Assembly (NCBI RefSeq): GCF_003014555.1
Contig: NZ_PYGE01000006.1
Location: 124,001 to 188,000 of the forward strand
Direction of reading: 5' to 3'
Length of the DNA: 64,000 nucleotides
DNA from: Haloactinopolyspora alba
GTDB taxonomy: Bacteria > Actinomycetota > Actinomycetes > Jiangellales > Jiangellaceae
Below the pieces are notes generated by a model, which had not been told where the DNA came from, ran no database searches, and saw only the letters and a program-made list of their open reading frames with translations. Of this stretch, positions 2 to 33,003 are shown one piece after another. Within the stretch, counting starts at the first letter, position 1. Each line of letters opens with the position of its first letter. The translations under genes and the position numbers were made by a program.

Positions 2-880
2 ACGCTCGAGGCTCCGGCCGACGCGCCGCTCACGGCAGAGGTCATTCCGCTCGTCCTCCGTGTGGTTCGCGGCGACGCGACCTGGCTGGACATCGAGGCG
101 ATCACCAAGTCGATCCTCTCGCTGACACAGAGCCTCCAGCGCTCGCGCCGCATGTACTACAACCAGATCGTCGCCGACGAGGACGCGATCTACGGCGAAG
201 ACCAGATCACGCCGCTGCTCTCGAAGCTCCTGCTCCAGGACGGCGACGAGATCGTGCTCGGCTTCGACGGGTCGAAGTCGCGTGATGCCACTGCACTAGT
301 GGGACTTCGCTTGAGCGACCGCCTGGTGGTGCCGCTCGGAATCTGGGAGAAGCCGCTCGGCGAAGCCGGCGAGGGCTGGGAGGTCGACACCGAGGTCGTC
401 GACTCGTTCGTGCATGAGGCGCACAGGCGCTTCCGGGTGCGGGCGTTCTACGCCGACGTCGAGCAGTGGGAGTCGTACATCGACTCCTGGTCTCGGCTGT
501 ACGGGGAGAGCTACGCCGTGCGCCCGTCAAACAAGTCGGCCATCGGCTGGGACTTCCGCGGCTCGCAGCAGCTCGTCACGCGAGCCCACGAAGCCCTGGT
601 GTCGAGCATCTTCAACGCCAGCCTGCGCATTGCCCGCAGCGCCAAGCCGCTTCTGGGCGGTCATGGCGACATCGGTGCGACGTTGCGCCGGCACATCCTC
701 AACGCCCGGCGACGGGTGAACAACTACGGCCTGAGCTTCGGCAAGGAGAGCAAGGACAGCCCGAAGAAGGTCGACGGCTACGCCGCCCTGATGGCCGCAC
801 ACCAAGCCGAGCACGACTACCACGAGCGCGGCCAGAAGAAGCCCACCGGAAAGCGCGCCGGCCGCGTCCACTTCACGTAG
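2..880 (+). CDS. Terminase large subunit, C-terminal part (5' end outside window)
   Basis: This is the nuclease half of the DNA-packaging motor; the frame is open to the window edge, so the ATPase half lies upstream. Visible RNase H-like nuclease features are an acidic strand GFDGSKSRDATAL, a second acidic strand YADVEQW, and a final Asp in VDGYAALMAAHQA. These fit the metal-binding acids of TerL nucleases. The stop lies 10 bases before the portal start, with a strong Shine-Dalgarno between, so the genes are co-transcribed. The segment at 292-305 (ACTAGT core) resembles the element seen upstream of early genes, but here it is inside codons. Confidence 0.9.
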   Translation, partial: TLEAPADAPLTAEVIPLVLRVVRGDATWLDIEAITKSILSLTQSLQRSRRMYYNQIVADEDAIYGEDQITPLLSKLLLQDGDEIVLGFDGSKSRDATALVGLRLSDRLVVPLGIWEKPLGEAGEGWEVDTEVVDSFVHEAHRRFRVRAFYADVEQWESYIDSWSRLYGESYAVRPSNKSAIGWDFRGSQQLVTRAHEALVSSIFNASLRIARSAKPLLGGHGDIGATLRRHILNARRRVNNYGLSFGKESKDSPKKVDGYAALMAAHQAEHDYHERGQKKPTGKRAGRVHFT

Positions 881-19488: not shown

Positions 19489-19734
19489 ATGGAGAAGTCG
19501 ATCCGCTCCCCCGAGCACGCCAAGCTCTGCCGCATCCTGCGGGAGCTGCGGGAGGAAGCCGACCTGCGCCAGAGCGACCTAGGGGCGCGCATCGGCGAGC
19601 CGCAGCGATTCGTCTCGGGCTACGAGCGCGGCGAGCTACGGCTCGATCTGGTGCAGTTGGATCGCATTACTACCGCACTCGGCTCCTCGCTGGAGGAGCT
19701 GCTGCGGCGCTATCGGGAAGTTACCGGAGCTTGA
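19489..19734 (+). CDS. XRE-family helix-turn-helix repressor
   Basis: This 81-residue protein is a lone Cro/CI-type DNA-binding domain: the helix-turn-helix covers about residues 26-60, with RQSDLGARIGEPQRFVSGYE as its core. The ATG at 19,489 is preferred because an upstream TTG falls inside the operator palindrome. It lies in the control region between leftward lysogenic and rightward early genes and is the best candidate for the immunity repressor or a Cro-like switch. No dimerisation or cleavage domain is present. Its 3' end overlaps the convergent gene by 14 bases. Confidence 0.8.
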   Translation: MEKSIRSPEHAKLCRILRELREEADLRQSDLGARIGEPQRFVSGYERGELRLDLVQLDRITTALGSSLEELLRRYREVTGA

Positions 19735-19957
19735 GGGCTTCGATCTCCTCCATTGACTTCGACGCCTGCTCATAGCCGCGCGCCGGCCGGGCGCGTGGCC
19801 TCGACGCCTGCTGGCCCCCACCCATCAGCTCATCCATGTCGCGCGCGCACGTCTCACACAGGACCACCCTCGCAGAACGCCCCCCGGATGAGATCGTGAA
19901 CTCTCTCACCATTCGCCCGTGGTCCTCGCTCCTGTCACAAACCTCTATGTAGGCCAT
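19721..19957 (-). CDS. Small cysteine-containing phage protein
   Basis: This 78-residue protein starts at an ATG with GGGAGG upstream (start 19,957). Its first half has strands around AYIEVCDRSED and a LCETC motif near residue 39, suggesting part of a zinc ribbon whose first pair is incomplete (one Cys). The C-terminal half is basic and disordered. Proteins of this layout are common in actinophages near the immunity region, with no known function. It is read leftwards and divergently from the next DNA-binding gene. Confidence 0.65.
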   Translation of the reverse strand: MAYIEVCDRSEDHGRMVREFTISSGGRSARVVLCETCARDMDELMGGGQQASRPRARPARGYEQASKSMEEIEALKLR

Positions 19958-20019
19958 CGCCCTGACACCTCCCTGACAGCACCAAGTGTACCAATCAGTA
20001 GGCAACTTGCGCTCCAATC

Positions 20020-20048
20020 TTGACACGATCACACTCTTGCTGCACGAT
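20020..20048 (+). promoter_or_regulatory. Candidate rightward promoter
   Basis: TTGACA at 20,020-20,025, a 17-base spacer, then CACGAT at 20,043-20,048. The -35 is perfect and the -10 weak. It would drive the HTH gene at 20,110. Confidence 0.45.
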
Positions 20049-20109
20049 CGTTATGTCCGGGTGCTCACGGGGGGCCACCGGGGGCGAAAGAAGGGGAGTG
20101 GGCGACGCA

Positions 20110-20565
20110 ATGGGTAGGCCCAAGATTCAGAACGAGAACGAGGCCATCCGCTGGATGGAGGAGGGCAAGACCTACAACGAGATCATCGAGTTGTACCGCA
20201 CCAAGTACAACATCGAGACGTCGCAATCGATGTGGGCGGCCTTTCGGCGACGCCGCGGACTTGATCGCCGCACGGTCCGCGATGACAGCCTGATTCCCTG
20301 GGCTATGAAGCGAGAGCATCGCTGGCTGTTTGCGCCGAAGATGCTCCGGCTCGAGGCGAAGTTGAGGGCCGGTAAGTCGATCGACAAGGACGACAAAGCG
20401 CGGCTCGACAGCTTCAAGGAGCGGCTCAAGACTGACGGCCGGGTCGTGCACTACGAGCCCGACACCAAGGAGGGATGGTTCTACGTGCCGGCGCGGGAGG
20501 GCATCGACACGGACCTGATTCGGGTGCCGGATTCGCCGTCTACCGAGCGACCCAGCAGGCACTAA
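20110..20565 (+). CDS. Phage HTH DNA-binding protein
   Basis: This 151-residue protein begins MGRPKIQNENEAIRWMEEG; the first 55 residues form a helix-turn-helix-like region (GKTYNEIIELYRTKYNIETS then an Arg-rich helix). The rest is helical with a C-terminal strand pair. Similar proteins are widespread in actinophages near the start of the early region and are annotated only as DNA-binding. The ATG follows GAAGGGGAG at a longish distance. A strong terminator follows directly, so it forms its own transcription unit, consistent with a regulatory gene. Confidence 0.72.
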   Translation: MGRPKIQNENEAIRWMEEGKTYNEIIELYRTKYNIETSQSMWAAFRRRRGLDRRTVRDDSLIPWAMKREHRWLFAPKMLRLEAKLRAGKSIDKDDKARLDSFKERLKTDGRVVHYEPDTKEGWFYVPAREGIDTDLIRVPDSPSTERPSRH

Positions 20566-20578
20566 CACGGACCCCTGG

Positions 20579-20616
20579 AGGGCGCCACGCGTTTCGGTGC
20601 GTGGCGCCCTTTCTGT
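20579..20616 (+). terminator. Strong rho-independent terminator
   Basis: A 12-bp perfect stem (AGGGCGCCACGC with GCGTGGCGCCCT), 8-base loop, then TTCTGTGTTTT. It isolates the HTH gene from the early operon. Confidence 0.9.
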
Positions 20617-20626
20617 GTTTTATGTC

Positions 20627-20680
20627 ACGTTTAGAAACGTACTCGGGCCGTTGAGAACGTTTTCCCGGTCAAGTAACGTC
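20627..20680 (+). promoter_or_regulatory. Early promoter with spaced AACGT boxes
   Basis: TTGAGA (20,651-20,656), 17-base spacer, TAACGT (20,674-20,679) make a good sigma-70-type promoter ahead of the early operon. AACGT recurs at 20,636, 20,656 and 20,675, spaced 19-20 bases, and the first lies in a perfect inverted repeat ACGTTT-AG-AAACGT (20,627-20,640). The boxes overlap the -35 and -10, so this looks like a repressed early promoter. Confidence 0.55.
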
Positions 20681-20814
20681 ATCGTCGTGACCGCGGGCTG
20701 TGCAGGGCAGCCCGACAGGGGGTAATCCGGGGGGATTCTTCACCCAGATCACCTGGGGCACACCGCTTGCACCATGCACCCCGAGCGTGGTACACAAGGG
20801 TCCTGTCAGGTCAC

Positions 20815-20842
20815 ACTAGTACACCGGAGGTTCCCACTAGTG
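20815..20842 (+). promoter_or_regulatory. Paired ACTAGT elements at the first early gene
   Basis: ACTAGT at 20,815-20,820 and 20,836-20,841 lie 21 bases apart, two helical turns, on either side of the GGAGG. The second sits in CACTAGTG and overlaps the GTG start codon. Related sites occur upstream of other early genes. Confidence 0.45.
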
Positions 20843-21106
20843 ACAGCAGTTCCACTGGGCGCTGGGCCGCAGACCCGCGTCGCGCGAGCCATCTCCAAGG
20901 ACGTCCACCTCAGCCTCGACGACGAAGCATACGACTTCCACGTCGAACTCCAGCCCGACTACGACACGCGCAACCTGGCCAAGGCGCTGAATCTCGCCGA
21001 AGCGCTCGGCTTCGAGGTCATCGAGCCCGACGAGTGCGAGGCCGAAGTCCTGCCGGACGGGCGCACGCGGATCTACCTGGTCCCGACTGACCTGGACGAC
21101 GAGTGA
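20840..21106 (+). CDS. First early protein, unknown function
   Basis: This 88-residue acidic protein starts at the GTG at 20,840 with GGAGG nine bases upstream; longer versions lack a site. It has an N-terminal strand, HLSLDDEAYDFHVELQ and a C-terminal strand pair ending IYLVPTDLDDE. No family is recognised. It overlaps the nuclease gene by four bases (GTGA), so it is coupled to it and may act with it. Confidence 0.6.
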   Translation: MTAVPLGAGPQTRVARAISKDVHLSLDDEAYDFHVELQPDYDTRNLAKALNLAEALGFEVIEPDECEAEVLPDGRTRIYLVPTDLDDE

Positions 21107-22050
21107 CGGCGCTGGAGATCGTGCCGGTCGACTCGAGCGCGCCGGCCAAGACAGACCTCCCCGGTCCCAAGCAGTTTCGATTACCGGGCCATCTCAGCTT
21201 CTCGGCGCTGTCGACGTACGCAGAGTGCGGCGAGCGGTACCGGATCGAGCGAGGTCACGGCGTGCGTGGCCCGTCGTACTGGAACACCGTCGGCGGCACC
21301 GCGGTGCACCACGTGACCGAGCTGGCCGACCGGGCCTGGTTCGGCGAGGACGTCGAGGTGCTCGACTTCGAAGCAGCCTTCGAGGAGGCGATCGCCGAGG
21401 AGGTCGAACGCTCCGGTTTCCCCGAGAGCGCGCTGCGGGCCAGCGGCCGGGCCAGCAAGGCGTGGCCGGACAAGCAGAACAAGTCCTGGTGGCTCACCCA
21501 TGGGCCGCTGTACGTCTCGGCCTGGATTCGCTGGCGCGAGAACACCGGGTACCGGCTCTGGGAGACGCCGTGGGGCGAGCCGGGCATCGAGGTGCCGATC
21601 GAGGTGCACGTTGGCGGCGAGCCGTTCGTCGGCTACATCGACCGGGTCTTCGTCGACCCGAACGACGGCACGGGCGTGCCGGTGGACCTCAAGTGCGGAA
21701 ACCACGAGCCTAAGTCGAGCCTCCAGCTCGGCACGTACGGCGTCGGCCTAGCGCGAGACTACGGCCTGCCGGTGCGCCGGGGCGGCTTCTGGATGGCGAA
21801 GAACTACGAGAAGGACGGCGACGGCCTCAAATACATGGAGGACCTGTCGCGGTTCACGCCGGAGTACGTGGACGTCCAGTTCGCTATGGCCTGGCGTGGC
21901 ATCCGGGCCGGCGTGTTCCTGCCGTCGCCCGGCATGATGTGCAAGTCGTGCTCCGTGCGCGACTTCTGCACCCTCATGGGCGGCGAGCGCGCTGACGAGC
22001 TGCCCGCGCTGGAGGTCTCGTCGGACATGAAGCAGATCACATCAGGCTGA
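21103..22050 (+). CDS. PD-(D/E)XK nuclease, RecB/Cas4-like exonuclease
   Basis: This 315-residue protein belongs to the RecB/Cas4-like family that resects DNA ends for recombination. An N-terminal cysteine in TYAECGERY is followed by a GTAVHH histidine motif near residue 68. The active-site motifs are GYIDRVF near residue 178 and VDLKCG near 196 with a following Gln helix (SSLQLGTYGVGLARDYG). The end has a CKSCSVRDFC cluster. The four cysteines would hold an iron-sulphur cluster as in Cas4. It is the first recognisable enzyme of the early operon and probably works with the genes downstream in recombination-dependent replication. Confidence 0.8.
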   Translation: MTALEIVPVDSSAPAKTDLPGPKQFRLPGHLSFSALSTYAECGERYRIERGHGVRGPSYWNTVGGTAVHHVTELADRAWFGEDVEVLDFEAAFEEAIAEEVERSGFPESALRASGRASKAWPDKQNKSWWLTHGPLYVSAWIRWRENTGYRLWETPWGEPGIEVPIEVHVGGEPFVGYIDRVFVDPNDGTGVPVDLKCGNHEPKSSLQLGTYGVGLARDYGLPVRRGGFWMAKNYEKDGDGLKYMEDLSRFTPEYVDVQFAMAWRGIRAGVFLPSPGMMCKSCSVRDFCTLMGGERADELPALEVSSDMKQITSG

Positions 22051-22052
22051 GT

Positions 22053-22068
22053 TGCACTAGTTGGACCG
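22053..22068 (+). promoter_or_regulatory. ACTAGT element copy (TGCACTAGTTGGACCG)
   Basis: It lies three bases after the nuclease stop, 45 bases before the next start. It differs by one base from the copy at 23,537 and by three from that at 26,897. Confidence 0.5.
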
Positions 22069-22112
22069 ACAGGATAGTGTTGGTCTCACCAACCGAGAGG
22101 AGGGCTCACTCA

Positions 22113-22640
22113 GTGAGCAACGGAGGGAATATCTCCATCAAGTACGGCGACAAGAAGGACGACTTCCACGCGCCGTGGCTGACCATCGGCGGCGAGGATG
22201 TTCACGACCAGCGGCTGCGACTCATCGCGGCCTTCGGGTGGAACGCCGCCGAACTGGAGGGCCAGACGCTGGCCCAGCTCGTCGTCCGCGCGGACCAGGA
22301 GGCGAAGGGGCTGTACAAGCTCCGCAACGACCTCGGCGCCACGGTGGTCTCTACTCCGCAGGCCCCGGCTGTGTCGCAGGCGGGCGCCGCGCCGATCGGC
22401 CAGCCACCGGCGAGCGACGACCCCTGGGCGCAGGCGCAGGCCGCCAGCGCCGCAGCAGACCCCGCCGCGGGCGCCGGCCAGGCTCCGGCCCAGGCACAGC
22501 CGCAGACGCTCATGGACAAGGTCAAGGCCGCCAACACGGTCCGCGAACTCCAGATGCTGTGGCGGGACAACAAGGCCGAGTGGGAGGCCGACGCGGCCAT
22601 CGGCGCGGCGGCCAAGGAGCGGAAGGCGGCGATCGCCTGA
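22113..22640 (+). CDS. Unknown early protein with Ala/Pro linker
   Basis: This 175-residue protein has an N-terminal folded part (residues 1-75, including SIKYGDKKDDFHAPWLTIGG), a long Ala/Pro/Gln linker (about 80-145) and a C-terminal helical part (MDKVKAANTVRELQMLWRDN). Two ordered domains joined by a flexible linker resemble replication or recombination accessory proteins such as SSB-like adaptors, but no motif proves it. The GTG at 22,113 has GAGGAGGG upstream. Its end overlaps the next ATG. Confidence 0.6.
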   Translation: MSNGGNISIKYGDKKDDFHAPWLTIGGEDVHDQRLRLIAAFGWNAAELEGQTLAQLVVRADQEAKGLYKLRNDLGATVVSTPQAPAVSQAGAAPIGQPPASDDPWAQAQAASAAADPAAGAGQAPAQAQPQTLMDKVKAANTVRELQMLWRDNKAEWEADAAIGAAAKERKAAIA

Positions 22641-23059
22641 TGGCGGCACGGAGAGTGACTCGGGTCGAGTTCGAGGACGCGGGGGCCGGGCGGGTTGCCG
22701 CCTCCGTCGAGGATGACGCACTGCGCCTGGAAGACCGGGGCGACGGCCATCACGTCTACATCGCGGCTGAGGATGTGCCCGAGTTGATCGCCTGGCTCAC
22801 GGACACATTCCCGAAGCCGGAGCTGGAGCGTGAGCCGCAGATCGGCGACACGATCGAGGTCCTGACCGACGGACCATCACACCCCGAGCCGGACATGCCT
22901 CGGCGGATCGGCTACCACGCCTTCCGCAAGGGGGCGCTTGCCACGCTGACGTCGACGTCGAGCGAACCCGACGCCTGCGTCGAGGCCAGGGGCGTCCATC
23001 ACCGCGATGGGTACCTGCTCACGCAAACGCTCGGCCGGGGCGACTTCAAGCTCGTCTGA
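22640..23059 (+). CDS. Unknown early protein
   Basis: This 139-residue protein starts at an ATG that overlaps the previous stop. It is beta-rich: an N-terminal strand block (VTRVEFEDAG, HHVYIAAEDVPELIAWL) and a C-terminal strand block. No motif is recognised. It is co-transcribed with the recombination-type genes around it. Confidence 0.6.
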   Translation: MAARRVTRVEFEDAGAGRVAASVEDDALRLEDRGDGHHVYIAAEDVPELIAWLTDTFPKPELEREPQIGDTIEVLTDGPSHPEPDMPRRIGYHAFRKGALATLTSTSSEPDACVEARGVHHRDGYLLTQTLGRGDFKLV

Positions 23060-23120
23060 CCCCGCTCCACCAGCACCACACACAACTTCATCGGACAACA
23101 GAACAGAGGAGCATCACCCA

Positions 23121-23531
23121 GTGGTTCAGATCACCAACTTCGCAGGCGGCACCTCCTACTTCAAGCCTGCCGACGAGTCCGAGGCCGTCGCCATCCTCAT
23201 CGAGCCGCTCAGCTACGAGCGCCAGCGCCCGACCGACTACGGGCCGAAAGACACGGCCGTCGCCCGCATGACCTTCTTCAAGTCCGAGGTCGCGCTCGAG
23301 ACCGGCGTGCCGGACGAGGTCCGGGAGTCCGTCACGGTCCAGCAGACCGCCCTCGCTCGCAACCTCGAGCAGTACGTCGGCAAGGGCGTCATCGTCACTC
23401 TCGGCCAGGGCAAGGCCAAGCCCGGCATGAATCCGCCGTGGATTTGGGTCCCGGCCTCGCCCGAGGTGCAGGCGAAGGTCGTCGAGTACGTCAAGGGGCT
23501 CGAAGAGGAACTGGCCGGGGCTCCCATCTGA
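23121..23531 (+). CDS. Unknown early protein, possibly single-strand-binding-like
   Basis: This 136-residue protein starts at a GTG with AGAGGAGC upstream. The first 60 residues contain strands and FKPADESEAVAILIEPLSYE; the centre carries ARNLEQYVGKGVIVTLGQGK, a Gly-rich turn between strands; the end is a charged helix. Small beta-barrel folds with this pattern occur in phage nucleic-acid-binding proteins, but this is an inference. The ACTAGT element follows its stop by five bases. Confidence 0.55.
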   Translation: MVQITNFAGGTSYFKPADESEAVAILIEPLSYERQRPTDYGPKDTAVARMTFFKSEVALETGVPDEVRESVTVQQTALARNLEQYVGKGVIVTLGQGKAKPGMNPPWIWVPASPEVQAKVVEYVKGLEEELAGAPI

Positions 23532-23536
23532 CTGAA

Positions 23537-23552
23537 TGTACTAGTTGGACCG
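23537..23552 (+). promoter_or_regulatory. ACTAGT element copy (TGTACTAGTTGGACCG)
   Basis: It follows a stop codon by five bases, like the copy at 22,053, and lies about 58 bases before the next gene start. Confidence 0.5.
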
Positions 23553-23609
23553 CGCGGGCCGGCAACGACGACCGGTCCGCGCCCCGGCCAGAGAGGAGGA
23601 GCGCCCCAC

Positions 23610-23849
23610 GTGGCCACAACATTGAAGTACCGCGGGGTTGGCGAGATCACTGCGGAAGAGTTCTTGGCGGCGCTGACCAGCGAGCCCCAGCGGCAGATCG
23701 ACATATTCGTGTCACTCGGCGGTGCCCCCGACGACCACAACTACGCGCGCCTGTCCTTCCTGACGCAAAAGCTTCGCCGCGCGGGGCATGACATCCGGTC
23801 AAGCCGGCGCCACGGCGTGTGGCTTGGCGATCGGGGCCGCCAATGCTGA
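23610..23849 (+). CDS. Small winged-helix-like protein
   Basis: This 79-residue protein starts at a GTG with GAGGAGGAGC upstream. Its second half, YARLSFLTQKLRRAGHDIR followed by a short strand pair with GVWL, resembles the recognition helix and wing of a small wHTH domain. It may bind DNA. It precedes the replicative ATPase and overlaps its ATG by seven bases, so it may control or help loading of that ATPase; this is inferred from place only. Confidence 0.55.
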   Translation: MATTLKYRGVGEITAEEFLAALTSEPQRQIDIFVSLGGAPDDHNYARLSFLTQKLRRAGHDIRSSRRHGVWLGDRGRQC

Positions 23850-24676
23850 ATGCACAGCGCGCTTTGACGCGCAACGTCCAGGGGAACGCCGAACTCCCCC
23901 GCGTGCCCGAGCTGGAGCCGCTCTACCAGCACGGAGCGCGCCCCCGGCGCGGCGAGGTCATCATGGTGGCCGGCCGCTCCGGCACTCAGAAGTCGGGGTT
24001 CGCCCTGTTCTGGACGGCCATGATGGGCCTGCCGACGCTGTACATGTCCGCCGACATGAGCGGCTTCACAGCCTCGGCCCGCCTGGCGTCGATCGTCACC
24101 GGCCACACGACGGAGCAGATCGAGCGGGGCATGTCGGACGCGGCGGCCCGGCAGATGTACCTCGACGCGATCGCGCCGATGAAGTTCCAGCTCTGCTTCG
24201 ACTCCCCCATCCGATGGACCGGACTGGCACAAGAGCTGGACGCCTACGTCGAGCTGTGGGATTCGTACCCGGCCATCGTCGTCCTCGACAACCTCATGGA
24301 CATCGAGGGCTGCGAGTCGAGCTACGAGGCGCAGATGGCAGCGATGGCCGAGGTAACCGACCTGGCCCGAGAGACCGGTTCGACCATCCTGATCCTGCAC
24401 CACGCGACCGACAAGGGCTGGGAGGCGAAGAGCAGCCCTTGGACGCCGCCGTCGCGGGACCAGGTGAAGGGCGGGCTGTCGGAGAAGCCCGAGCTGTCGC
24501 TCTCCGTGGCGCTCGACCCGACGTCGTACGCCTACAACATCGCCATCATCAAGCAGCGCATGGGCCGCTCGGACCCGTCGGCGCAGCAGTTCTGCACGCT
24601 CCGCGCCTACCCGGAACACACCCGCTTCGGCCCGTACAAGGGCACCTTCAACCCACCTGGAGTGATCGACCTGTGA
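23843..24676 (+). CDS. DnaB/RecA-like replicative ATPase
   Basis: This 277-residue protein has a RecA-type core. The Walker A region reads VAGRSGTQKSGF near residue 50, in which the usual Gly before Lys is Gln; Walker B is AIVVLDNLMDI near 148; a sensor-like ILILHHATDKG follows near 185; the C-terminal QRMG region ends in a beta hairpin. It resembles the AAA_25/DnaB-like helicases of actinophages that unwind the fork or load on SSB-coated DNA. The start ATG at 23,843 overlaps the previous stop. The Walker A substitution may weaken nucleotide binding or be normal for this group. Confidence 0.75.
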   Translation: MLNAQRALTRNVQGNAELPRVPELEPLYQHGARPRRGEVIMVAGRSGTQKSGFALFWTAMMGLPTLYMSADMSGFTASARLASIVTGHTTEQIERGMSDAAARQMYLDAIAPMKFQLCFDSPIRWTGLAQELDAYVELWDSYPAIVVLDNLMDIEGCESSYEAQMAAMAEVTDLARETGSTILILHHATDKGWEAKSSPWTPPSRDQVKGGLSEKPELSLSVALDPTSYAYNIAIIKQRMGRSDPSAQQFCTLRAYPEHTRFGPYKGTFNPPGVIDL

Positions 24677-24861
24677 AGAGCGCAATCGGCGCCCTCATTG
24701 CGGGCATCCCCGTCACGTCCTTCGCCGTCGGCATCCTGTCCGGCTCTGGCGTGCTGACGGTGGTCATGTCCGTTCTCGGCCTCATCACCTACCTCCTGAT
24801 CCTGGTGAGCTTCGGCGCGTACATCCGCACGCTCCAGGACACCTACGGGGGGCCGGAGTGA
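24673..24861 (+). CDS. Small two-helix membrane protein
   Basis: A 62-residue frame (GTG at 24,673, overlapping the previous stop) that is nearly all hydrophobic: two membrane helices joined near a Gly/Ser turn (about residues 4-25 and 27-50). A short charged tail follows. It lies inside the replication genes with four-base overlaps on both sides, which supports translation. A membrane anchor for the replisome or a superinfection-exclusion protein are possible; neither is shown. Confidence 0.6.
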   Translation: MKSAIGALIAGIPVTSFAVGILSGSGVLTVVMSVLGLITYLLILVSFGAYIRTLQDTYGGPE

Positions 24862-25382
24862 ACGTCCTCGGGATCGACCCGTCGCTGACCGCGACCGGCG
24901 TGTGCCTGCCGGACGGCAAGACCTACACGATGAAGTCGAGACTCAAGGGCGACGACCGCCTGGAGTCCATCTATCTCCGCCTGCTGGTCGACGTCGAAGA
25001 CCACTGGCCGGTCGATCTGGCCGTCATCGAGGACCTGCCGGTCAACGCCAAGAGCGCCGGCCTGACCGGCATGGCCCAGGGCGTCATCCGCATGGCACTC
25101 GCCAGCGCCGGAGTCCCCGTCGCGCGGATCAGCCCGGCCACGCTCAAGAAGTTCGCCACCGGCAAGGGCAACGCCGACAAGACGGCCATGCTCGCCGCGA
25201 CTCCCGACCAATACAGGGGCAGTTTCGGCGACGACAACCAGGTCGACGCCTGGTGGCTGCGCGAGGCCGGTCGCGCCTGGCTCGGCGACAGTCCGTTCTT
25301 CGGTCCCTACCAGGGCGAAGCCGTGCTCGACGTCCTGCGCAAGGCCAAGTGGCCCGACCCCACCGAGGAGGTGGCTGCGTGA
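24858..25382 (+). CDS. RuvC-like Holliday junction resolvase
   Basis: This 174-residue nuclease would cut branched DNA made in phage recombination or packaging. It opens with the RNase H-fold motif VLGIDPSLTATGV (catalytic Asp7), has VIEDLPV near residue 54, a helix with GMAQGVIRMALASAG near 75 and the last acids in DDNQVDAWWL near 129. The length matches the RuvC family. The GTG start overlaps the previous stop. Confidence 0.85.
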   Translation: MNVLGIDPSLTATGVCLPDGKTYTMKSRLKGDDRLESIYLRLLVDVEDHWPVDLAVIEDLPVNAKSAGLTGMAQGVIRMALASAGVPVARISPATLKKFATGKGNADKTAMLAATPDQYRGSFGDDNQVDAWWLREAGRAWLGDSPFFGPYQGEAVLDVLRKAKWPDPTEEVAA

Positions 25383-26005
25383 GGGACAAGCCCGACCTGG
25401 CCGAGCTGATCGACCTGGCCGGACGGCGGCACGAAAGCGCGAACTCCAAGCAGTGCGCGGGCTGTGGCGAGGCGACCTGGCGGCGAGAGGGCGAGCTGCC
25501 CGGACAGTTTCGGCGACGCAAGTACTGTACGCGGGATTGCTACAGCACGACCCGAGCCGTCGCCCCCGCCCGCAAGTCGTGCGAGCAATGCGGCGAGACG
25601 ATGGAGCAGGATCGTGCCGGGCGCGAGTCCGTCAGCCAGTTCCGGCGGCGGCAGTTCTGCTCCCTTCGGTGCTACCACGACCACCGGGGCGGCGAGAAGG
25701 CCGCGCTGGCCGAGGTGCGACGGATGTGCTTCGGCTGCGGGGGCCACCTCGAGCCGAGGTATGGCGAGGGCGCAGAGGCATTCGCGGCCCGCAAGTACTG
25801 CGAGGCCGCCTGCATGGCGAAGCGTCGGGCGTACGTTGTCGAGGAGCTGGACTTCCTCGTCGGCACGGACACGCCGGACAGCCTGGCCAGGCGCCTCGGA
25901 TACAGCCGCAGCCACCTCATGGAGCTGCTCGACGAGGTGGAGCGCCCGGACCTGGCGCAGGCATTCCGACAGGAGCGCAACGATGACGCGGTTCGCGCGG
26001 CTTGA
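25379..26005 (+). CDS. Three tandem zinc modules plus HTH, DNA-binding candidate
   Basis: This 208-residue protein has three similar modules, each with CxxCG at the start and Y/FCxxxC at the end: CAGCGEATW...KYCTRDCY, CEQCGETME...QFCSLRCY, and CFGCGGHLE...KYCEAACM. Between the pairs lie Arg-rich loops (PGQFRRRKYC, VSQFRRRQFC). Each could bind one zinc as a treble-clef-type knuckle. A C-terminal helix-turn-helix-like piece follows (TPDSLARRLGYSRSHLMELL). The GTG start overlaps the resolvase stop and the end overlaps the primase start. The combined array suggests sequence-specific binding, perhaps at an origin or promoter. I know of no described protein with exactly this order. Confidence 0.7.
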   Translation: MRDKPDLAELIDLAGRRHESANSKQCAGCGEATWRREGELPGQFRRRKYCTRDCYSTTRAVAPARKSCEQCGETMEQDRAGRESVSQFRRRQFCSLRCYHDHRGGEKAALAEVRRMCFGCGGHLEPRYGEGAEAFAARKYCEAACMAKRRAYVVEELDFLVGTDTPDSLARRLGYSRSHLMELLDEVERPDLAQAFRQERNDDAVRAA

Positions 26006-26423
26006 GCCACAGCGGCCCGAGGATTCCGGACGACCCGAACTGTCGGAGGTCCTGGAGCACTACGGCGTCCAGGTCAACCGGGCCAGGGCGCGTCAGATGG
26101 TCCGCTGTCCCGTGCATGACGATCGCACGCCGTCGTGCTCACTCGACCTCCGCGGCACTGGCCTGTGGAACTGCCATCGCTGCGGCGAGGGCGGCGACGT
26201 GTGGAACCTGATCATGAAGAAGGAGGGGACAGATTTCCGAGGAGCACGAGCCGCTGCGGCCACTCTCGGGTTCGCAACGGGAGATGCTGGAGGAGGCGAC
26301 GACCTCGTACCAGAGGGCCGTTTCGCGCGAAGTCGCGGAGTACCTGATAGCGCGAGGAATCGGTCAGGCCGAGGCGGCTACGTTCCGGCTGGGCTACGTC
26401 GCCGACCCCCATCCGGGCCATGA
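25983..26423 (+). CDS. DNA primase, zinc-binding N-terminal part (frame 1 of a split gene)
   Basis: From the ATG at 25,983 this frame carries the CHC2-type zinc finger of DnaG-like primases: VRCPVHDDRTPSC near residue 39 and WNCHRCGEGGDVWNLI near 60. After about residue 100 (ATGDAGGGDD) the frame continues into Arg/Pro-rich sequence and stops at 26,423, whereas the neighbouring frame holds the expected continuation. Either the frame is changed by recoding near 26,280 or the zinc domain is a separate short protein. It overlaps the zinc-module gene by 23 bases. Confidence 0.75.
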   Translation: MTRFARLEPQRPEDSGRPELSEVLEHYGVQVNRARARQMVRCPVHDDRTPSCSLDLRGTGLWNCHRCGEGGDVWNLIMKKEGTDFRGARAAAATLGFATGDAGGGDDLVPEGRFARSRGVPDSARNRSGRGGYVPAGLRRRPPSGP

Positions 26424-26904
26424 GCACGTCCGGGGCCGCCTAGCCATCCCCTACCTGGGGCACGACGGCCGCGTACTCAGCGTCCGCTTCCGCTGCCTCC
26501 AGGTGCACTCATGCAAGGACGCGGGCCACGGCAAGTACAAGTCGCTCGAGGGCGAGCCGACCCGGATGTTCAACGTCCCGGCGCTGCACGTGGCCGGCGA
26601 CGAAATCCACCTGTGCGAGGGCGAGCTGGACTGCATCATCCTCACGAAGATTGGCCTCAACGCGGTTGCCGTCGCTGGGAACCACGCATGGGCCGGCCGC
26701 CACCGCAGGATGCTGAACGGCTTCTCCCGCGTGTGGACATGGGCAGACCCGGACAAGGCCGGGAGCGAGCTGACCAACACGGTGACCCGCGCGCTGGTGA
26801 CGGCCAAGCCCGTCCGACTCCGCGAGGGCGACGTGACCGACGAATACCTCAAGCATGGGGCCGAGCACCTTCTCGGCTTGCTTGAGCGCAAGGAGGTGTA
26901 CTAG
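26284..26904 (+). CDS. DNA primase, TOPRIM part (frame 2 of the split gene)
   Basis: This 206-residue frame carries the catalytic part of the primase: a helical segment EYLIARGIGQAEAATFRLGY, a strand block with RFRCLQVHSC, then the TOPRIM signatures LCEGELDCI and WADPDKAG. Its ATG at 26,284 has GGGAG directly against it, too close for a normal site, so synthesis by frameshift from the zinc-domain frame or by re-initiation is likely. It lies in frame +1 relative to the zinc part, open back to 26,218. The final TAG falls inside an ACTAGT element. Confidence 0.78.
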   Translation: MLEEATTSYQRAVSREVAEYLIARGIGQAEAATFRLGYVADPHPGHEHVRGRLAIPYLGHDGRVLSVRFRCLQVHSCKDAGHGKYKSLEGEPTRMFNVPALHVAGDEIHLCEGELDCIILTKIGLNAVAVAGNHAWAGRHRRMLNGFSRVWTWADPDKAGSELTNTVTRALVTAKPVRLREGDVTDEYLKHGAEHLLGLLERKEVY

Positions 26905-26912
26905 TGTGACCG
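26897..26912 (+). promoter_or_regulatory. ACTAGT element copy (TGTACTAGTGTGACCG)
   Basis: It overlaps the primase stop and the GTG start of the next gene, directly after AAGGAGG. A protein bound here, or RNA structure, would touch the translation start. Confidence 0.45.
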
Positions 26913-27142
26913 AGCTTCGAGAGAAGCTGGCCCAGGTACCGGCCCGAAGGAAGCCGCTAGGCAAGGTCGAGGCCATCCTCGCCTCCCTGGACGACGCCGA
27001 GCGCGACCTGGTGACCGAGACCCTAGCCGGAACGGACCACACGTCCGAGTCCCTGGCGGCGATCCTCACCGAGTCCGGTCATCCCATCTCGACCTCCACC
27101 ATCCGCAGCTACAGGCGCGACTTGCGCCGGAAGGTGCCCTAG
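26906..27142 (+). CDS. Small HTH protein
   Basis: This 78-residue protein starts at the GTG after AAGGAGG. Residues 40-72 look like a helix-turn-helix ([20 protein letters not shown] then RRDLRRKVP), with a helical N-terminus. Similar small proteins are common in actinophages and unassigned. It probably binds DNA. Confidence 0.65.
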
Positions 27143-27342
27143 TGAGACCAGCACAGATCAGCGAGCAGCTTCCGGTCACCCGCGAGCAGCTCCAGAAGGT
27201 CGCGGACTTCGTGGCCCTGCCTCCGGCCGACATTGTCCGAATCGCTCCAGAGTTCGATTCGGAGACGAACCTCGCCCGCTACCGGGTGCACACCACGTTC
27301 GGCGGTCGGCCGTACGCCATGCCGAAGTCGGTGATCGCGTGA
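27142..27342 (+). CDS. Small unknown early protein
   Basis: A 66-residue frame beginning at a GTG that overlaps the previous stop by one base. It has an N-terminal helix ([20 protein letters not shown]) and a strand pair ([16 protein letters not shown]). No family is recognised. Packing with four-base overlap to the next gene supports it. Confidence 0.55.
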
Positions 27343-31251: not shown

Positions 31252-32019
31252 ATGATCGATCAGAAGATGATGGACGAGGCGATGGCCGAAGTCGGCCAGA
31301 TGCTGGAGGACACCGCGTCGTTGCGATTCGACTTGCCGGAGTCGGTCACGGCACAGGAAGGGTGGGAAGAGGAGGTCAGGTTCATTGGTGGCTGGCTACG
31401 ACACATCGAACACACGCTCGAAGCAGTCGCGCTCCTAGTGAATAACGAGCACCCACACGCTGCCGCGCCCCTTGTCAGACTGGCCCTGGAGGATGCCGTA
31501 AGCGCAGCTCTCGTCGCCAGAGATCCCAAGGCGTGGGAAGCGGTCTTAGCCAAAGCCCAAGACTCCGAGGGCCGAGTCCTGAGGGACATGTACCAGGCCG
31601 GCCTCACGCCGCCCGACGAACTCAAGGATCTCGTCGACTCGCTCCCTCCGAGCGCGCCTGACGGCTACGGACCCGTCAAGAACATGACCGCACGATTCAA
31701 GGCGCTAGGCGATGATGGCGCGCGTCTGCTCGCTCTCTGGGGCCTGCTGACGCAGCAGAGCCATGGCAACATCCACACGGCATCCCTCTTCCTCGACTTC
31801 GACGGTGGCCCCGGTGGGATTCCATCGATCCGGCTTGATCCTCAGCTTCCCGCGGACCTGCTCAACCTCCACTTCACGAGCCTCGATTGCATGCTCCTCG
31901 CCACTGAGTCGTACAGCCAGGTCCTCGTGGGAGACCCGCTCGGAAGCGCGGTGCAGGCTATCCACGCCCGGAAGGCTGCCGTTGAAGAGAAGCTCATCAA
32001 AGCTTCACGTGCCGACTAG
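31252..32019 (+). CDS. DUF5677-like helical accessory protein
   Basis: This 255-residue, mostly helical protein starts at the ATG at 31,252, with AAGGGTGGGG upstream. Its central segment (FIGGWLRHIEHTLEAVALLV, then LVRLALEDAVSAALVARDP) recalls the HEPN-like fold of DUF5677 proteins. The assignment is tentative; no RxxxxH catalytic motif is sure. Its codon use is less GC-rich than the phage core, and it lies alone in the accessory region beside the attachment site. It may be a cargo gene expressed in the lysogen, perhaps for defence, which is an inference. Confidence 0.6.
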   Translation: MIDQKMMDEAMAEVGQMLEDTASLRFDLPESVTAQEGWEEEVRFIGGWLRHIEHTLEAVALLVNNEHPHAAAPLVRLALEDAVSAALVARDPKAWEAVLAKAQDSEGRVLRDMYQAGLTPPDELKDLVDSLPPSAPDGYGPVKNMTARFKALGDDGARLLALWGLLTQQSHGNIHTASLFLDFDGGPGGIPSIRLDPQLPADLLNLHFTSLDCMLLATESYSQVLVGDPLGSAVQAIHARKAAVEEKLIKASRAD

Positions 32020-32637: not shown

Positions 32638-32958
32638 GGCTTCTCGCCCCCCTCGCTCGTAGATTCCCGACCGGAGCGGCCGATCGGCGCGAAGATCGTA
32701 TACCTAGCCCAGGACACACGTGCAATCGACGCGGAACGCAAAAAGGCCCCGACCCAGGGATCTCTCCCTGAGCCGGGGCCCGGCTTATACCATGAGCGTC
32801 GTCGGTTGCGCCAGCCCGCGACGTCGCGTCAGTGAGCACATAGTGAGCAGACCGCGACGCGACGCCGTGGAATGGGGCGAACATCCTAATCGCCCCGACG
32901 CCCTGAGCTGCTCAGTTGACGCCCATCGTTGCTGGTGATATGGACGGCCGTACGTGCA
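32638..32958. other. Non-coding end of the prophage
   Basis: No convincing gene is seen in this stretch between the DUF2321 gene and the attachment site. It holds the terminator-like hairpin at 32,745-32,780 and presumably the promoter of the DUF2321 gene. Confidence 0.6.
32745..32780 (-). terminator. Leftward terminator near the prophage end
   Basis: Nested stem: GGCCCCG with CGGGGCC outside and CAGGGA with TCCCTG inside. On the minus strand it ends in GGCCTTTTT, so it would stop transcription entering the prophage from the host genes on the right. Confidence 0.7.
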
Positions 32959-33003
32959 CTCAAAATGCGGTGTGTGTCGGTTCGAGTCCGACCCGGGCTA
33001 CCA
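32959..33003 (+). other. attR: 3' end of a tRNA gene
   Basis: The T arm (GTCGG, TTCGAGT, CCGAC at 32,976-32,992), acceptor strand CCGGGCT (32,993-32,999), A and CCA (33,000-33,003) are complete. A CTCAAAA anticodon-like loop (32,959-32,965) precedes them, but no 5' acceptor strand AGCCCGG or D arm is found, and the variable part is too short for leucine. This is the expected remnant when a phage integrates at a tRNA 3' end; the whole tRNA should be at the other junction. The tRNA identity is not certain. Confidence 0.7.

Follow-up and report, generated by a model that had tools for sequence, protein, structure and literature searches.

Phage R4 has a repressor-stoperator system, as stated in passages of PMC10276819 that cite Smith 2013, and the same passages place at least 8 R4 sites between genes of the phiScoe phages. 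For the cluster A phages, sections of PMC9283540 present the structure of the TipsytheTRex immunity repressor (7r6r) as a monomer that binds an asymmetric site with a helix-turn-helix (HTH) and a ‘Stoperator domain’, for which the residues R45, W50, K81, D104 and R108 matter. Here we analysed a family of ACTAGT-centred elements in a 54,065-bp prophage of Haloactinopolyspora alba. The window, the whole 64,000-nt stretch that was analysed, corresponds to positions 124001-188000 of contig NZ_PYGE01000006.1 (C6 in the following), and its positions 1-33003 are the right part of the prophage. With a probability of roughly 0.9, the elements are the operators and stoperators of the prophage's own R4-type repressor.

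The true element is an asymmetric 15-bp word, TGYACTAGTKNGACC (GGTCNMACTAGTRCA on the other strand), of which the prophage has 10 copies if one mismatch is allowed and 12 if two are, compared with means of 0.03 and 0.5 copies, respectively, in 60 order-2 Markov resamples of the prophage. A scoring matrix was built on the 10 copies with up to one mismatch, and the search of the full prophage that had been recommended along with the original prediction was run with it; 12 prophage places scoring at least 14.7 were set apart from the rest of the 104 kb, where the next best place (12.8) lay in the host flank. The consensus over these 12 sites is TG[CT]ACTAGT[GT][AG]GACC. In the complete 5.5-Mb genome, all six exact copies and, with one mismatch allowed, 10 of 13 matches fell inside the prophage. 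The word read backwards, used as a control in the same genome, gave no exact copy and 25 matches at up to one mismatch; because of this control, the one-mismatch evidence consists in the concentration of copies within 1% of the genome and not in their total, and lone one-mismatch matches outside the prophage are meaningless. Exact copies were found in none of 21 other genomes of the host family, in which the control gave one match in each of six.

In the window the hexamer ACTAGT occurs seven times (295, 20815, 20836, 22056, 23540, 26900 and 32015) against an expectation of 2.29 ± 1.31, and none of 100 shuffles reached this number. All occurrences that the original prediction had named were located correctly, the one at 32015 being additional. 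Its proposed unit, TGYACTAGT, was abandoned, as this 9-mer with one mismatch allowed remained at chance level (8 occurrences against 5.43 ± 2.38, with 8 or more obtained in 15 of 100 shuffles) and the significant unit is the 15-bp word. Two hexamers were also rejected as members: the one at 32015, which lacks the full site, and the one at 20836, with three mismatches and a score of 11.2, below that of the host-flank place. The sites, together with this weak match, are as follows (window coordinates unless marked C6).

292..306, + strand: site with 1 mismatch, lying within the reading frame of the terminase large subunit
20809..20823, − strand: site with 0 mismatches, in opposite orientation to the early genes and preceding the first of them; proposed operator
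20830..20844, − strand: weak ACTAGT match with 3 mismatches, outside the member count
22053..22067, + strand: stoperator-like site with 0 mismatches, starting 3 nt past the last base of the exonuclease stop codon
23537..23551, + strand: stoperator-like site with 0 mismatches, starting 6 nt past the last base of the stop codon of the phrog_1288 gene (slot B)
26897..26911, + strand: site with 0 mismatches, its TAG being the stop codon of 26284-26904; the next GTG start overlaps
27135..27149, + strand: site with 1 mismatch (TGCCCTAGTGAGACC), its TAG being the stop codon of 26906-27142
C6:106716, 115106, 116408, 116885, 117948 and 118166: six sites left of the window

The family that had been proposed for the early region is thus real, and it is larger, with additional sites at 27135 and at six places to the left of the window; both arms of the prophage carry sites. 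Of the 16-mers described as near-identical and following stop codons, those at 22053 and 23537 differ by one base; the element said to overlap a start, at 26897, contains the TAG with which a primase-like gene ends and reaches the GTG start of the next gene; and the close copy noted in the terminase frame at 292 is there. As for the pair of ACTAGT sites claimed around the first early ribosome-binding site, the first is a full site, though reversed, and the second did not hold.

Placement was judged by gene calls from our own script, which missed some genes. The centres of 8 of the 12 sites are non-coding, compared with 19% of the prophage. Equal frequency inside coding sequence would have spoken against the proposal, and it was not observed. 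Among the four coding-centred sites, three have their TAG serving as a stop codon and one lies inside a frame. Seven of the 12 start between −7 and +6 nt from the last base of a stop codon, a count that includes one gene model (115122-115733) taken from the open reading frame list and absent from the gene calls; the site at C6:116408 begins 28 nt after a stop (called gene end 116450). The two diverged copies, C6:117948 and C6:118166, are situated between the divergent arms in a stretch without called protein genes. Ten of the 12 sites read TGYACTAGTKNGACC in the orientation of the nearest gene, and for nine of these ten, all the genes that contain or adjoin the site run the same way, C6:117948 being the tenth. 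The exceptions are C6:118166, ambiguous between the divergent arms, and the reversed site at 20809.

The proposed binder of all sites is encoded just ahead of the early genes.

20110..20565, + strand: R4-type immunity repressor of 151 aa, with an N-terminal HTH and a C-terminal stoperator-type domain

This protein matched phrog_3929 (transcriptional repressor) with an E value of 6e-60 and phrog_357 with 0.0011; Pfam gave no match for it. A tblastn search with the repressor returned 172 phage records, all of Streptomyces phages and all covering at least 80% of its length. In R4, the annotation of the gene at the same place calls it a transcriptional repressor and ‘similar to L5 gp71’, and identity to the repressors of eight reference phages (R4, phiScoe56, phiScoe1, Animus, Izzy, Saftant, Endor1 and Sentinel; three taken whole, five as their first 50,000 bases) was 47-60%. 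Scans for the repressor family yielded 32 bacterial loci, including Streptomyces, Micromonospora, Glycomyces, Lentzea, Saccharothrix, Nocardioides and Blastococcus, and 82 viral loci, of which the best 80 were taken. A profile of 56 repressors, the prophage's own and 55 of these 112 loci, was compared with the PDB by hmmsearch and matched 7r6r, the crystallised cluster A repressor of TipsytheTRex, over chain residues 58-179 with an E value of 7.2e-9, no other PDB sequence scoring below 0.5. An AlphaFold model of the repressor (mean predicted local distance difference test score 85.3, predicted template modelling score 0.60) matched 7r6r in Foldseek with an E value of 9.4e-5, the next being 0.8, and in VIA-align with a Z score of 10.3 over 138 of the 151 residues and a root-mean-square deviation of 4.0, the next structure reaching Z 6.8 over 47 residues. 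When the TipsytheTRex residues were mapped by hand on the profile alignment, the essential W50 corresponded to W42 (W in 50 of 56 family members) and R108 to R98 (R in 50 of 56).

Besides the prophage's own repressor, the search for the family gave one distant relative among 21 other genomes of the host's order (G006) and four more among 393 drawn genomes of the class (G095, G325, G326 and G338). One of the stretches taken from these genomes, L146, has a contig as long as that of the locus L055 and is probably not a new case. In the first, a same-family genome, the locus in question (L145, G006:C176) carries TGTATACTATGGCCACA in two gene gaps, after 3019 and after 11417, on the reversed strand; this word is possibly the locus's own site.

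We next turn to the R4-like relatives, in which two positions of the early region served as anchors. Both genes follow the repressor, as they do in R4.

21103..22050, + strand: Cas4-like exonuclease gene, anchor of slot A (phrog_1870 exonuclease, E 1.3e-61; PF12705)
23121..23531, + strand: phrog_1288 gene, function unknown, anchor of slot B (E 3.1e-26)

In slot A, after the exonuclease gene, a site or clear remnant was found in all nine genomes, the prophage and 8 of 8 reference phages (TGCACTAGTTGGAC in the prophage, TGTGTAAGTTGGAC in R4, TGTGTAACTTGGAT in Camvirus and TGTGTAACGTTGGCA in Izzy). Likewise, slot B held alignable sites in all eight reference phages, with TGTACTAGTTGGACC in the prophage, TGTGACAGTGTGAGC in the Camvirus phiScoe56 and TGTGCAACCTTCGC in Izzy. 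By eye, two slots were particular to the prophage, without counterpart in the eight phages: the one behind the primase and the one behind the small gene that follows it. Those after DnaB and directly after the terminase were particular to the relatives, without counterpart in the prophage. Five of the eight phages (R4, phiScoe1, Animus, Sentinel and Izzy) likewise have a reversed site in the interval that separates the repressor from the first early gene. As the reversed orientation at 20809 is shared with these relatives, it suggests a special role for this site, most simply that of an operator.

With matrices grown from hand-chosen seeds and a cut of about 0.5 false sites per resampled genome, the numbers of sites, co-oriented sites and non-coding sites, respectively, were 12/10/8 in the prophage, 41/29/28 in R4, 25/23/17 in phiScoe56, 45/34/28 in phiScoe1, 41/33/33 in Animus, 20/16/16 in Izzy, 30/24/22 in Saftant, 24/20/19 in Endor1 and 41/31/29 in Sentinel. 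A de novo motif search was also made on the intergenic DNA of the prophage, R4, phiScoe56, Animus and Izzy, ribosome-binding-site-like words being excluded. In the prophage the TGYACTAGTKNGACC type came out as top motif, and each of the four phages tried gave a site alignable with it: TGTGYAAGTGTGAC in R4, TGTGACAGTGTGA in phiScoe56, TGTGYAAGTG in Animus and TGTGYWACCTTSGC in Izzy. The same kind of search on loci of mostly 20 kb gave a clear motif in part of them only, with many rows of three members and weak scores, and on L065, the prophage's own copy, a word other than the site came out on top. Searching de novo for 13-mers against a plain composition null was abandoned, since it returned mostly coding-bias words; the Camvirus sites did stand out in it. 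Separately, a word resembling a tRNA T-arm, GGTTCGAGTCC, was seen in 12 intergenic segments of Izzy (L029) and 10 of phiScoe56 (L026), and in Izzy it sits in a short inverted repeat followed by CACCCACT.

The relatives do not share the word itself. At up to one mismatch the ACTAGT site was found in 0 of 119 other related loci; 120 were scanned, one being the prophage's own copy, and most were about 20 kb or less and some were copies of the same phages. Two IMG/VR loci, L003 and L065, are letter-identical to the prophage and were not counted as independent. ACTAGT was likewise absent from the R4 record (50,000 of 51,071 bases) and from that of phiScoe56. The expectation that related phages would carry the element therefore failed for the ACTAGT version and held for the slots, where other, alignable words stand.

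This change of word is accompanied by a change in the recognition helix, which reads SQSMWAAF in the prophage repressor and V[PA]S[ML]WGNF in all eight reference repressors. Residue 44 was compared with base 4 of the site in the two homologous slots, found with five exonuclease and five slot B queries, for the 73 repressors with a slot among 101 non-redundant ones. Where the repressor has N44, base 4 was G in 107 of 128 slot places (18 not callable, three with another base); where it does not, G was found in 0 of 14 places, of which seven were callable. The single E44 repressor (L124) had no callable site, and the base-4 pattern was mis-registered in L048 and L076, which by eye read TGTTAAC and TGTTAAG. 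Residue 44 co-varies with base 4, for which shared descent may account, since by eye the repressors lacking N44 form only about two lineages.

The co-variation fits an HTH that reads the 5′ part of the site, the part met first by polymerase in the TipsytheTRex model (sections of PMC9283540). Cluster A sites, too, have an invariant part, the remainder varying with immune specificity, according to portions of PMC5559632, and the role of the Stoperator domain in immune specificity is put forward in PMC9283540, in the sections available, as a hypothesis awaiting validation. We tentatively propose, as a possibility that we hold at somewhat less than even, that R4-type sites consist of two half-sites changing independently and that residue 44 of the recognition helix sets base 4 (asparagine going with G, alanine or threonine with A or T); the prophage, with A44 and TGY-A-CT, would then be a natural specificity switch in which the sites of a whole genome were re-coded and the slots kept. 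If this is true, immunity groups would be predictable from sequence. As the slots are shared and the word has changed along with the repressor, these phages offer a natural series on the co-change of a repressor and its scattered sites, which also bears on which half-site each repressor domain reads.

In the lysogen, the R4-type repressor, probably as a monomer with two DNA-binding domains, would bind each asymmetric 15-bp site. The reversed site at 20809 would act as an operator that blocks initiation, and C6:117948 and C6:118166 might perhaps be operators blocking initiation too. The sites at gene ends would be stoperators, halting RNA polymerase that arrives from upstream and thereby silencing both arms. 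We infer binding, the monomeric state and the block of initiation and elongation, the elongation stop from homology, orientation and placement.

Two further HTH proteins encoded by the prophage have to be considered as binders (L017 denotes a stretch of the same contig whose position 6216 is C6:110216).

19489-19734: gene of an XRE protein
L017:7387-8295: gene of an HTH_31/DUF5753 protein

The original prediction had pointed to XRE and HTH proteins, and their being encoded by the prophage itself speaks for them. Regulators of the XRE and HTH_31 types usually read dyads, whereas the site is asymmetric; moreover, from relative to relative the slots and the site grammar go together with the R4-type repressor, with which base 4 co-varies as well. 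That the sites are operators of one of these two proteins is very unlikely, and less likely than binding by the R4-type repressor. The position at stop codons could also indicate signals acting in RNA, namely terminators or mRNA processing sites after genes, and an inverted repeat does follow the site at 23537. This repeat, however, gave no terminator match, the sites occur on both strands with one of them reversed ahead of an early gene, and the 15 bp are constant across sites while the flanks differ; such signals seem to us even harder to credit. Lastly, ACTAGT might recur through TAG and GTG junctions, that is by codon context and chance. The TAG is indeed a stop codon in three sites and, with one mismatch allowed, the 9-mer does not exceed chance, but the match extends over 15 bp with 10 copies where 0.03 are expected, the genome matches concentrate in the prophage, and the sites align with those of relatives that have no ACTAGT core. 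Of the explanations considered, this is the one to which we give the least credence.

Several observations weigh against the assignment of the sites to the R4-type repressor as operators and stoperators. With its 12 sites, the prophage stays below the eight reference phages, where an identical seeded procedure gave 20-45, and below the 20-30 per genome given for cluster A in passages of PMC6550527. One site, that at 292, is within a coding frame. In the three Camvirus genomes the matrix found no reversed site after the repressor, and by eye the prophage, unlike R4 and phiScoe56, has no clear site ahead of its repressor gene. A scan for sigma-70-type promoters gave no match in 19900-23900; in L017:13500-14700 it gave two weak matches, neither at the sites. 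On the side of the protein, the repressor as a single sequence had no useful match in the PDB, so that the profile was needed, and VIA warns that Z values below about 13 in mostly helical models may reflect a common arrangement. Finally, T37 stands where TipsytheTRex has the essential R45, and F74 where it has K81, a position at which 44 of 56 family members have Y; conservation is poor in the D104 column, with D in 13 of the 56.

The prophage is bounded by a 48-bp direct repeat, whose other copy is at C6:102939-102986, and has a tyrosine integrase gene at its left end. By the gene calls, the genes of the left arm run leftward, and structural and then early genes run rightward. The remaining features of the window are listed below.

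20577..20612, + strand: intrinsic terminator-like hairpin after the repressor gene, with a 16-pair stem; consensus match only
20840..21106, + strand: first early gene, 88 aa (phrog_5250, function unknown, E 1.3e-17)
26284-26904: primase-like gene (by synteny), with its stop TAG inside the site at 26897
26906-27142: small gene next after the primase-like gene, with its stop TAG inside the site at 27135
32956..33003, + strand: attR, the 48-bp direct repeat, like a tRNA 3′ end; right end of the prophage

A rightward block interrupts the leftward left arm at L017:6216-8778 (C6:110216-112778) and contains a DUF6879 gene and the HTH_31/DUF5753 gene. Two tRNA genes, tRNA-Asn (gtt) at L017:15283-15356 and tRNA-Lys (ctt) at L017:16935-17009, are prophage genes, and several near-repeats of AGAGCTAGAGCCTTGGTTCTTTAGAATCC lie between the arms at L017:15080-15210. 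To the right of attR, window positions 33004-64000 seem to be ordinary chromosome and not prophage.

When the early-region DNA was compared with phage records, 191 matched, among them 174 of Streptomyces phages and 11 of Mycobacterium phages. The 40 matches listed had 20-25% query coverage and 68-72.5% identity; 13 records were tallied at 80% or more, none of them among these 40. Judged from its DNA and its repressor, the prophage is not a cluster A phage and is placed with the R4-like Streptomyces phages. The likeness to stoperators of cluster A mycobacteriophages that the original prediction had noticed is nonetheless borne out, as the element is short and asymmetric, present in a dozen copies, mostly intergenic or overlapping stops, co-oriented, and accompanied by a syntenic homologous repressor. 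With cluster A (L5, TipsytheTRex, Bxb1) the prophage shares a repressor homologous in sequence and of matching fold (7r6r), as well as short asymmetric sites between genes or at gene ends, oriented with transcription (described in parts of PMC6550527 and PMC9283540). The cluster A sites are 13-14 bp long and the consensus words quoted in portions of PMC5559632 end in TGTCAAG, whereas the prophage sites have no such end. The cluster CA Rhodococcus phages, in the passages of PMC13313380 that deal with them, also have sites that are intergenic or over gene termini in one orientation; their consensus, TGTCTATTGTCAAG, is of the cluster A type, unlike that of the prophage. In our literature search, no paper contained both ‘stoperator’ and ACTAGT.

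The closest counterpart is the R4-type system of the Arquatrovirinae (cluster BD Streptomyces phages). Common to both are a homologous repressor just ahead of the early genes, many copies of one short asymmetric site spread over the genome, mostly intergenic or at gene ends and co-oriented, the occupation of shared slots, and the reversed site after the repressor in five of eight phages. They differ in the core of the site, which is ACT-AGT in the prophage, GYA-AGT in R4, Sentinel, Animus and phiScoe1, GAC-AGT in Camvirus and GYWACCTT in Izzy; the R4 site class, TGTGYAAGTG, is not the prophage's word. Furthermore, the prophage has the smaller number of sites, and it combines a tyrosine integrase with a tRNA-type att, whereas in the eight reference records the enzyme is entered as a serine integrase or simply as ‘integrase’. 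Unlike that of the R4-type phages, its host is not a Streptomyces. The mechanism would thus be a known one; as far as searched, the novelty lies in the site, in the variant of its repressor and in the host. The R4-type repressor-stoperator scheme would extend outside Streptomyces, with a word that all 119 other related stretches examined lack.

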